From Treponema sp. (GTDB taxonomy: Bacteria > Spirochaetota > Spirochaetia > Treponematales > Breznakiellaceae), in contig WQSW01000001.1 in NCBI GenBank assembly GCA_009787695.1, positions 63,604 to 127,603 of the forward strand: DNA of 64,000 nt, read 5' to 3'. The notes under the pieces were generated by a model. The model made no database searches. It saw only the letters and a list, made by a program, of their open reading frames with translations, and was not told where the DNA came from. The position numbers and the translations under genes are program-made. This document shows positions 36,681-39,946 of this stretch, piece after piece; within the stretch, counting starts at the first letter, position 1; each line of letters begins with the position of its first letter.

Positions 36681-38264
36681 TTGAAAAATCTTATTTTTGT
36701 ATTTGCATTTGTTTTACTTAATTTTTCTGTTTTTGCTCAAGAAGAAAGAGAAATTGAACATTTTTTTAATATCGAACATGAAAATAAAATAGAGACAGAA
36801 ATTATAATCAATATTAATACAGATAAAATTATTGATTTTGATTCTGAATCAATCTTTATAATAAATTCATATCATTATCACATAAAAGGTATGACCATTC
36901 CTGTATTATTAAATAATAAAGTAGAAATAAAAACCGGAGAAGTAATTTTAGGGACAGAAAATTTTAAAAAATATTTACGAAATAAAACACAGCTAATAAT
37001 TAATGAAAGAGTTTTAAAAGACAATGCACATATAGATTATACAATCGGAGAAATAAACGAAGACGGAAAATATCCTGTAGATTTGCATGTATATGCCGAA
37101 GATACATGGAATATTATCGCTCTTCCCTATCCTAAGTTTGACTCAAATACAGGATTAAGCCTTTCTGTAAAAGCGCGCGATTATAATTTCTTAGGAACTA
37201 TGAGTCCTCTGAGAGTTGATATCGGCTATGAATTAGACAGAGACGGAAAAAATTCTTTTTTCTTAATGCTTGATTCAGGAATTCCTTTTCATTTTCTTGG
37301 ATTAAATTGGCATTTTAATTTTGATCATGATTATACTTACAGACCTAACACGGCATTGCATCATTATTATAAAAATACAACGGGTTTATCAATTGAACTG
37401 CCTGTAAAAAGAACTAAATTAACACTCGGTTTTGATGAAAGTTTTATTTTAAACGAGAAATATAATGAAGTCGGCAATGATGATGATATATTTCAAAATG
37501 GAATTTATTTATCATCCAGACCCTTTATTTCATGGGAATTCCCGACAGGGCTTAATGTCGGAAATTACGGCGAATTAAAATATACTCCGGAAGTATCAGC
37601 GAAATTTAATCATGAAATCAATACAAAATTATCTGATACTAGAATTGGTCCTTTTTTAGAATTATCTCATACACTTGGTTTTGAAAGAATTGACTGGATA
37701 GGAAATTTTAAAAAAGGATTTTCTGCAAATATAAACAATTCTTTTAATTATGATTTTTACCAGTCTAAAATTGATAAAAATCCTTTAACATACGATATTA
37801 TTATAACAAGTACAGCATATTTTACAATTACCGATTTTTTAGGTTTCTCTACACGTTTTATGTACCGGCATTGGTTTAACACATACAATGATGCTGCAGG
37901 AGACGCTCTAAGGGGAATTGCAGATAAAGAAATAGATGCACATTATATGATTTCTGTAAACCTTGATCTTCCTGTAAGAATATTAAGATTTAAACCTTCA
38001 CAATGGTTTAATAAAGATAAATTAAAAATATTAAATTTTGATCTTCACTTAAGCCCTGTAATTGATACAGCTGTTTTTTATTTTTATGATAATCCGTCAT
38101 TTAGTATGGATAATTTTCTTTTATCAGGCGGTTTTGAAATAATAATTTTCCCTGAGTTTTTCCGCAGCCTTTTCTTCCGGGCATCTTTATGTATAAATAT
38201 TTTGGATTTACCGGAATTAAAAAACAATTATGAAATATTCCTTGGCATGGATTTTCATTATTAA
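36681..38264 (+). CDS. putative outer-membrane beta-barrel protein
   Basis: Signal peptide MKNLIFVFAFVLLNFSVFAQE; alternating hydrophobic strands, terminal aromatic (FLGMDFHY); TTG start. Confidence 0.65.
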   Translation: MKNLIFVFAFVLLNFSVFAQEEREIEHFFNIEHENKIETEIIININTDKIIDFDSESIFIINSYHYHIKGMTIPVLLNNKVEIKTGEVILGTENFKKYLRNKTQLIINERVLKDNAHIDYTIGEINEDGKYPVDLHVYAEDTWNIIALPYPKFDSNTGLSLSVKARDYNFLGTMSPLRVDIGYELDRDGKNSFFLMLDSGIPFHFLGLNWHFNFDHDYTYRPNTALHHYYKNTTGLSIELPVKRTKLTLGFDESFILNEKYNEVGNDDDIFQNGIYLSSRPFISWEFPTGLNVGNYGELKYTPEVSAKFNHEINTKLSDTRIGPFLELSHTLGFERIDWIGNFKKGFSANINNSFNYDFYQSKIDKNPLTYDIIITSTAYFTITDFLGFSTRFMYRHWFNTYNDAAGDALRGIADKEIDAHYMISVNLDLPVRILRFKPSQWFNKDKLKILNFDLHLSPVIDTAVFYFYDNPSFSMDNFLLSGGFEIIIFPEFFRSLFFRASLCINILDLPELKNNYEIFLGMDFHY

Positions 38265-38273
38265 ATTATATAA

Positions 38274-38672
38274 ATGCTTAAAAATCAAAATGAAAAAAAC
38301 ATTAATTTGCGCCTTTCTATACTTATTCTTCTTGCCTTTCTCGCAGGCTGCATTTTCACAGGATATATCATCTATCGAGAAAGATTTACAGGCATTGGAA
38401 TCCTTGATTCAAGATACGATAGACAACACGCAAGAGCAGCAGAGATTATTGGAAGACTTGAAGAGGAACTTGGACGAGAGCGGGAACTTAATATCAGATT
38501 ACGAGAATATAATAACAGAGCAAGAGACCTTACTGACGGACTTGCGTCTTCAGCTGAACGAAATGTCCGAAACCTACAGGATGCAATCACAATTATCGGC
38601 GAGATACGCCAAAAGCTCAAAGTTCTGGCGGACTTTTACAATAATAGCGATCCCGGTAACAGCGCTGATTAG
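38274..38672 (+). CDS. small membrane/lipoprotein-like coiled-coil protein (overlapping frame B)
   Basis: INLRLSILILLAFLAGCIFTGYIIY TM with lipobox-like LAGC, then coiled coil AAEIIGRLEEELGRERELNIRLREYNNRARDLTDGLASSAERNVRNLQDAI. Codon choice (ctt, gaa, gga, aga) resembles neighbouring genes. Confidence 0.6.
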   Translation: MLKNQNEKNINLRLSILILLAFLAGCIFTGYIIYRERFTGIGILDSRYDRQHARAAEIIGRLEEELGRERELNIRLREYNNRARDLTDGLASSAERNVRNLQDAITIIGEIRQKLKVLADFYNNSDPGNSAD

Positions 38673-38703
38673 CGGCGGTGTTGTTTGGGCAGTTGTTAGG
38701 TGA
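38290..38703 (+). CDS. small exported coiled-coil protein with C-terminal TM (overlapping frame A, +1 relative to frame B)
   Basis: Canonical signal peptide MKKTLICAFLYLFFLPFSQAAFSQ, heptad-like coiled coil, C-terminal TM FWRTFTIIAIPVTALISGGVVWAVV. ORF track gives 38230 as first Met; the MKK start is more plausible. Confidence 0.6.
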   Translation: MKKTLICAFLYLFFLPFSQAAFSQDISSIEKDLQALESLIQDTIDNTQEQQRLLEDLKRNLDESGNLISDYENIITEQETLLTDLRLQLNEMSETYRMQSQLSARYAKSSKFWRTFTIIAIPVTALISGGVVWAVVR

Positions 38704-38716
38704 AAGTAAAAAATAA

Positions 38717-39946
38717 ATGAACGAATTAAATTTATTACTTAAACAAATATCACTTGGCGAAGACAGCATTTTGGAATTAAAGGATATTAAATATTCAGAT
38801 AATTCTGTAATTGGTCCTCACCGTGACTCATTTGCAAGTGAATTGTCGGCTATGGCAAATTCGCACGGCGGTACTATAATTCTTGGAGCAGATGATAAAA
38901 CACATGAAATTATAGGTTTACCTTGTGATAAACTTGATATTACAGAAACATGGATAAGAAATATAGCCAATGATTTAATTAAACCTCCGCTTATCTGCAA
39001 AATAAGAAAACTGATTGTTTTAAAGGAAAATAATGAAAAAATAATAATTCGTATTGATATTCCGCAAAGTATTTTTGTACATGAATGTTCTGACGGTTAT
39101 TTCTATCGTATTGGAAGTTCAAAACGAAAAATGTCTCCTGACTTTTTAGCAAGACTTTTTCAGCAAAGAACGCAAAATAGATTAATTCGTTTTGACGAAC
39201 AACTTGTTATGGACGCATCTGTTAATGATCTTAAAGAAAATTTATTTAATCGGTTTAAAACTGATCTTTCTCCGAAAGATAACATTGAATTTTTAAGGAA
39301 AATGAAACTAATTTCTTCTAACGAAGATAATGATTTATATCCTACAGTCAGCGGAATTCTAATTGCGTTTGATACACCTGAAAATTTTATTTCAAATTCA
39401 TATATTCAAGCAGTATGCTATCTCGGCGATAATTACGGATCAGAGCAGCTTGATGCAATGGATATAACAGGTCCTCTGGATATTCAAATAAGAGAAGCAT
39501 GTAAATTTGTTAAAAGAAACATGAAAACCAGAGCTGTAAAAAATCCCGGAAGAATTGAAACTCCGCAATATTCATTAAATGCTGTTTTTGAAGCAATAGT
39601 AAATGCAGTTGCACACAGAGATTATTCAATTTACGGTTCAAAAATCCGCTTGCATATTTTTTCTGACAGAATTGAACTTTATTCTCCGGGCTGTATTCCT
39701 AATAGTATGACTATAGACTCTCTTCAGTTCAGGCAATCATCCCGAAACGAATTACTTAGTTCACTTCTATCAAGATGTCCGATTAATTTTGAAAATTATG
39801 AAAGTAAACGTAACTTTATTATGGATAAACGCGGAGAAGGTGTTCCTATAATTCTTTCTGAAAGTTTTAAACTTTCCGGAAAAATGCCGGAGTATAAATT
39901 AATTGATGATACAGAACTCTTATTAACTATTTTTTCTGCATTCTGA
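38717..39946 (+). CDS. AlbA_2/Schlafen-like ATP-binding transcriptional regulator-type protein
   Basis: ILELKDIKYSD...FASELSAMANSHGGTIILGADD (AlbA_2) and ALNAVFEAIVNAVAHRDYSIYGSKIRLHIFSDRIELYSPG (HATPase_c_4-like). Confidence 0.85.
   Translation: MNELNLLLKQISLGEDSILELKDIKYSDNSVIGPHRDSFASELSAMANSHGGTIILGADDKTHEIIGLPCDKLDITETWIRNIANDLIKPPLICKIRKLIVLKENNEKIIIRIDIPQSIFVHECSDGYFYRIGSSKRKMSPDFLARLFQQRTQNRLIRFDEQLVMDASVNDLKENLFNRFKTDLSPKDNIEFLRKMKLISSNEDNDLYPTVSGILIAFDTPENFISNSYIQAVCYLGDNYGSEQLDAMDITGPLDIQIREACKFVKRNMKTRAVKNPGRIETPQYSLNAVFEAIVNAVAHRDYSIYGSKIRLHIFSDRIELYSPGCIPNSMTIDSLQFRQSSRNELLSSLLSRCPINFENYESKRNFIMDKRGEGVPIILSESFKLSGKMPEYKLIDDTELLLTIFSAF

Follow-up and report, generated by a model that had tools for sequence, protein, structure and literature searches.

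Two genes that overlap almost completely on the same strand, here called frame A and frame B and together AB, lie in the 64-kb stretch of termite-gut Treponema DNA that we analysed (the window), and both are real and under purifying selection. We consider it probable that the two proteins represent a chromosomal, phage-free copy of a spanin-type lysis pair of Treponema phages, a reading for which there are no expression or lysis data. To our knowledge, few genes outside viruses overlap almost completely on the same strand while both frames are demonstrably under selection; for AB, such a selected overlap is seen across some 20 genera, internal controls included. What do gene callers make of such an arrangement? 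Those limited to one gene per stretch miss one member of every AB pair.

Frame B (38274..38672, + strand, 132 aa) has an N-terminal transmembrane (TM) or signal segment followed by a long coiled coil. According to prediction and direct reading, its hydrophobic segment comprises residues 9-35 (38298..38378, +) and contains an LAGC lipobox, whose cysteine, Cys26, is read directly at 38349-38351 (+). Frame A (38290..38703, + strand, 137 aa) carries a cleavable-type signal peptide (residues 1-24; 38290..38361, +), a long coiled coil and a C-terminal TM (residues 114-137; 38629..38700, +). The dual-coding overlap extends over 383 nt (38290..38672, +), with A in the +1 frame of B, and the coordinates and extent that a preliminary description of this DNA had claimed for it are correct. 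The membrane-anchored coiled coils that it had envisaged are also borne out by TM and signal predictions and by AlphaFold2 models built on homologue alignments, which give near-continuous helices for A (2-23 and 25-136) and B (3-124) with a mean pLDDT of 88. A and B are predicted to be membrane-anchored coiled coils with their anchors at opposite ends, the N-terminus in B and the C-terminus in A.

AB is the sole same-strand, out-of-frame pair of open reading frames (ORFs) of at least 100 aa and with an overlap of at least 300 nt in the window, and its G+C content is 41%, compared with 28% and 32% in its neighbours. Upstream lies the gene of a signal-bearing 527-aa protein (36681..38264, +), beta-barrel-like by eye and without a Pfam match, which stops 10 nt 5′ of the ATG of B and whose neighbourhood recurs in genome G016 (locus L050). 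Downstream, 14 nt past A, a gene encodes an AlbA_2/Schlafen and HATPase_c_4 protein (38717..39946, +) that is absent beside AB in the relatives examined. A polysaccharide function, hinted at by the neighbours in the window, was rejected because the neighbours of AB vary in nearly every genome. The remainder of the window is chromosomal, and no phage genes were seen in it around AB.

Queried separately, A and B matched the same 17 of 40 genus genomes, in the same places and at about 50-70% identity, and of 203 family genomes, 53 matched the profile of A and 47 that of B, at identical loci. By profile search, AB occurs in about 20 of the family's genera with the +1 register unchanged, and divergent matches of 15-50 bits still hold both frames in that register. 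Each of the 14 intact genus orthologues has A and B open, whereas stops crowd the third frame, for which reason a third gene in the remaining forward frame was rejected. Per gene, about 1% of synonymous recodings of A leave B without a stop, and the same applies when B is recoded. Given the protein of the other frame, each frame scores at least 8 SD above its recoded versions, both ways and in 14 of 14 genomes; shared ancestry could inflate this score, an objection to which the substitution-class test is not open. In that test, performed on seven independent close pairs, dN/dS was 0.28 (0.20-0.39) for frame A and 0.38 (0.27-0.53) for frame B, against 1.13 (0.83-1.59) and 1.20 (1.04-1.39) for the control, a fictitious second frame of neighbouring single-coding genes. 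Between genomes G020 and G018, distances at codon positions 1/2/3 are 0.062/0.125/0.181 in AB, counted in the A frame, and 0.142/0.077/0.366 in a neighbouring gene. The recoding openness, the 8-SD score and the dN/dS values therefore exclude that one frame is a mere by-product of the other. The rival reading of a single gene, with the second frame open merely through codon use and shared ancestry, retains next to no credibility: long spurious ORFs are indeed present in the window and retaining the protein of one frame saves 60-80 of the about 190 bits of the other's score, but the constraint is symmetric with controls near 1, both frames are open in the 14 intact genus orthologues and also in divergent phage copies, and the twin start and, in most genus copies, the spacing of the stops described below are conserved. 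The preliminary description had taken the segment for two real overlapping genes and had proposed a separate homology search for each frame and a synonymous-constraint test, both of which turned out in its favour. Homologues conserving one frame only, which it had named as grounds for refutation, were not encountered; only decaying extra copies lose a frame, and it may be either one (B in L140, A in L062 and L063).

In most intact copies the start codon of B (ATG, GTG or TTG) stands exactly 4 nt 5′ of the ATG of A, forming a twin start of the type NTG-N-ATG (TTGAATG, TTGCATG, ATGAATG, GTGAATG or ATGCATG) that is often preceded by a single AGGAG-type Shine-Dalgarno sequence, and in nearly all genus copies A stops 31 nt after B. 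Unlike this usual layout, the start region of the window (38274..38292, +) has the ATG of B at 38274 and that of A at 38290, 16 nt apart, and no Shine-Dalgarno sequence was seen there. The start layout of the window is derived, and we infer that the stop of the upstream gene is near enough for coupled re-initiation. Frame A is open further upstream in the window, to an ATG at 38230; its start was placed at 38290 because homologues begin there.

The named relatives of AB belong mostly to Treponema and Spirochaetaceae genome assemblies, and isolate names suggest that they come from termite-gut samples. Like the window copy, most genus copies lie among ordinary bacterial genes in varying places. 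The window and G016 have four upstream genes in common, with AB close behind them, and this common gene run fits long residence. Some genomes hold several AB copies or fragments, the paralogues being alike only over a 0.45-kb unit (about 420-490 nt). The many copies and fragments in several genomes, the shortness of the paralogous match and the changing neighbourhoods would all suit the idea that the chromosomal copies have no host function and amount to parasitic debris, the unit having spread through recombination or trans-mobilisation. Nevertheless, we regard this as quite improbable, since purifying selection acts on both frames among the chromosomal copies and most carrier genomes of the genus contain intact single copies.

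Divergent homologues of AB are found in prophages and in IMG/VR phages, usually directly behind an endolysin gene. In L155, capsid and ClpP-type genes come first, then small TM genes and a CHAP endolysin, and AB is followed later by a tape measure gene; in L161 an Amidase_2 endolysin and one small ORF precede AB. The surroundings are portal, protease and capsid genes in L162, and Mu F, protease, head decoration and capsid genes in L165; in L154 a DUF261 gene stands before AB and a tail sheath gene further on. Scanning with the A2 profile identified three IMG/VR contigs with AB near the type of the window: L225, where AB is followed by Mu Gp27, terminase and portal genes; L226, where it follows an M15 endolysin; and L224, where it follows a DUF261-like gene assigned by eye. 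IMG/VR scans with the A protein of the window and with that of L161 gave no match, that with A of L155 gave one weak locus (L227), and tblastn of A or B against phage and plasmid records returned none; wide alignments were too variable to serve in contig scans. A phylum-wide search led to a second, oral-type Treponema family of AB, whose homology to the family of the window rests on 20-35 bits and the shared layout only. Here the gene immediately before AB encodes a CHAP, M15 or M23 endolysin in L254, L255, L256, L260 and L261, and in L257 AB is preceded by genes for a C39-like peptidase and a small TM protein; most of the members inspected are in or beside phage-like genes.

The DUF261 proteins directly before AB (L154:6555-6992, L225:7477-7914 and L224:7560-7988) were assigned by a Pfam match in L154, a weak Pfam match in L225 and eye in L224. 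Because they hold the endolysin position before AB, DUF261 may be a spirochaete-phage endolysin.

Spanins disrupt the outer membrane, the lysis step that follows those of holin and endolysin (PMC6139136). The endolysin-adjacent position, the anchored coiled coils, the overlapping frames and the presence of a lipoprotein in most second-family phages are the reasons for our spanin-like reading. Six of the eight second-family copies have a textbook lipoprotein as B, with motifs such as LSSCC or LSGCC (MNEKRWIVFIVSLLLLSLSGCCTSAG is one example), and an A that consists of signal peptide, coiled coil and C-terminal TM. Frame B of the window is the counterpart of this lipoprotein (o-spanin-like) frame, and frame A is i-spanin-like and anchored at its C-terminus. 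The preliminary description, which had called B lipobox-like and had cited the Rz/Rz1 pair as a precedent of layout only, was apt on the first point and has been exceeded on the second, given that homologues occupy the spanin position in phage lysis cassettes. The window and about half of the chromosomal copies have the lipobox cysteine of B, which is missing from all phage copies of the window's own family that were tested; because this cysteine is not conserved, B as a plain lipoprotein across this family was rejected. No copy of A examined has a lipobox, and A as a lipoprotein was likewise rejected.

How far, then, does AB agree with known spanins? The criterion of a lysis cassette is fulfilled by the phage homologues, though not by the window copy itself, as the former adjoin CHAP, Amidase_2, M15, M23 or C39-like enzymes and Mu terminase genes, and so is that of an embedded architecture, with overlapping coding in two frames. 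The Rz/Rz1-type criterion of an inner-membrane partner with an N-terminal TM and a periplasmic coiled coil is not met: where B is a lipoprotein, A combines a signal peptide with a C-terminal TM, and in the family of the window B bears an N-terminal TM but A is no lipoprotein. Nor is that of a unimolecular spanin (an N-terminal lipobox and a C-terminal TM in one protein), as A lacks the lipobox, nor that of a significant profile match to known spanin families in PHROG or Pfam. Indeed, Pfam and PHROG scans of A and B from the window gave coiled-coil noise only and no spanin family match, the PHROG ‘Rz-like spanin’ profile reached E values of 0.0015-0.024 against phage members, which is coiled-coil level, a PDB sequence search returned only coiled coils, and Foldseek found no match of the A model among viral structures. 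On our reading, AB is a spanin-like variant and not a plain Rz/Rz1 member; formal membership is not claimed, because the lipobox of B is not conserved in the family of the window and A is anchored at its C-terminus.

AB resembles lambda Rz/Rz1 in comprising two membrane-attached proteins encoded in +1 overlapping frames within one small gene, in a lysis cassette by the endolysin, with a periplasmic coiled coil and, in most second-family phages, one lipoprotein partner (PMC6139136, Kongari et al. 2018). It differs in that the two genes overlap almost entirely and start only 4 nt from each other, with the lipoprotein-equivalent frame in the lead, and in that A has a C-terminal TM behind a signal peptide whereas the i-spanin has an N-terminal TM (PMC6139136); moreover, the lipobox is not conserved in the family of the window, there is no sequence similarity, and AB has phage-free chromosomal copies. 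With the unimolecular spanin T1 gp11, A has in common an N-terminal export signal and a C-terminal inner-membrane TM, but it lacks a lipobox, is helical and not beta-rich, and is paired with a second, overlapping protein (PMC6139136). In transposable prophages of Leptospira, o-spanins are predicted to be wholly embedded in i-spanin genes beside an M23 peptidase (PMC8705779). These are likewise embedded spanins of spirochaete Mu-like prophages, although the host is Leptospira and not Treponema, and neither a twin start nor chromosomal copies are described in the available part of that report. A catalogue of 38 Treponema prophages, which belong to the host group of AB itself, does not deal with lysis genes, spanins or overlapping genes in its main text (PMC11144348). 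AB provides Treponema phages with a candidate spanin pair, a lysis function on which the main text of the catalogue is silent (PMC11144348), and hints at a spanin layout in which the inner-membrane partner is anchored by its C-terminus.

The absence of a family match to spanins, together with the apparent inner-membrane anchoring of A and B in the family of the window, where B is mostly no lipoprotein, leaves some room for A and B being another phage membrane pair, such as a holin and antiholin or a tail or superinfection factor, that merely adjoins the endolysin. We think this unlikely, because separate small TM genes, possible holins by eye, lie beside the cassettes of L155, L224 and L261, long periplasmic coiled coils are unlike holins, B is a lipoprotein in most second-family phages, and spanins lie in just such a slot, between the endolysin and the Mu terminase genes.

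If AB is a spanin-type pair, in which direction did it travel? The tree of A mixes phage copies with chromosomal ones and requires at least three label changes. A transfer from phage to host is likely but not proven, because the deep branches of this tree are long and its root is not fixed. Chromosomal copies outnumber phage copies across the searched genomes, and one group of phage copies nests within them, so that a host envelope gene repeatedly acquired by phages, instead of a phage gene domesticated by the host, cannot be discarded, unlikely as we hold it to be: the deepest and most divergent members are phage copies, only three label changes are needed on the tree, and the second-family members inspected are mostly in or beside phage-like genes. 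Returning to a phage origin, we propose only tentatively that a dual-coded, twin-start phage spanin pair has repeatedly been captured by Treponema chromosomes, kept for a purpose of the host and selected in the absence of the phage. Under such a capture, that purpose might be the controlled breaching or fusion of membranes, for self-lysis or the release of vesicles or particles, or else the blocking of the last lysis step of invading phages, a suggestion just as tentative. In any case, phage-free copies under selection raise the question of what use bacteria make of a device for breaching the outer membrane.

A possible mechanism, inferred and not demonstrated, can be outlined. Ribosomes bound at one site would start at either of the adjacent codons, B first and A 4 nt later in most relatives, so that both chains would be made from one mRNA. 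After export, A would remain fixed in the inner membrane through its C-terminal TM; B would be tethered N-terminally, its lipoprotein versions to the outer membrane through their lipid and the others through a TM. The rod-like coiled coils of A and B, about 85 residues each, could pair across the periplasm. Once the endolysin has cut the wall, A and B would pull the two membranes towards each other and so rupture the outer one, in the manner of Rz and Rz1. The chromosomal copies may have retained this envelope-breaching role in the form of host-controlled lysis, particle release or help to resident phages, which is inferred and has not been shown.

Several minor features of the AB loci deserve mention. 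An antisense ORF runs across the overlap in the window (38372-38620, - strand), and long antisense ORFs across it also occur in L051, L053 and L057; they are probably a by-product of codon bias, which has not been tested. Some AB fragments are broken or flanked by short palindromic GC-rich repeats (L063 and L064 in G039, L062 in G033, L127-L132 in G114), and contigs often end in AB, as they do for a multi-copy repeat. Lipoprotein-like genes are commoner beside chromosomal AB than in the background (14 of 49 adjacent same-strand ORFs vs 35 of 354; Fisher p 0.0007, the loci not being independent), the loci concerned including L052, L058, L137, L139, L140, L142, L150, L152, L153 and L157. Finally, runs of 10-20 C, for which the background is about 0.01 per 310 nt, are found upstream of AB in seven loci, at a distance of about 70-100 nt in L150-L153, L156 and L157 and of about 200 nt in L141, which suggests phase-variable expression of chromosomal copies.
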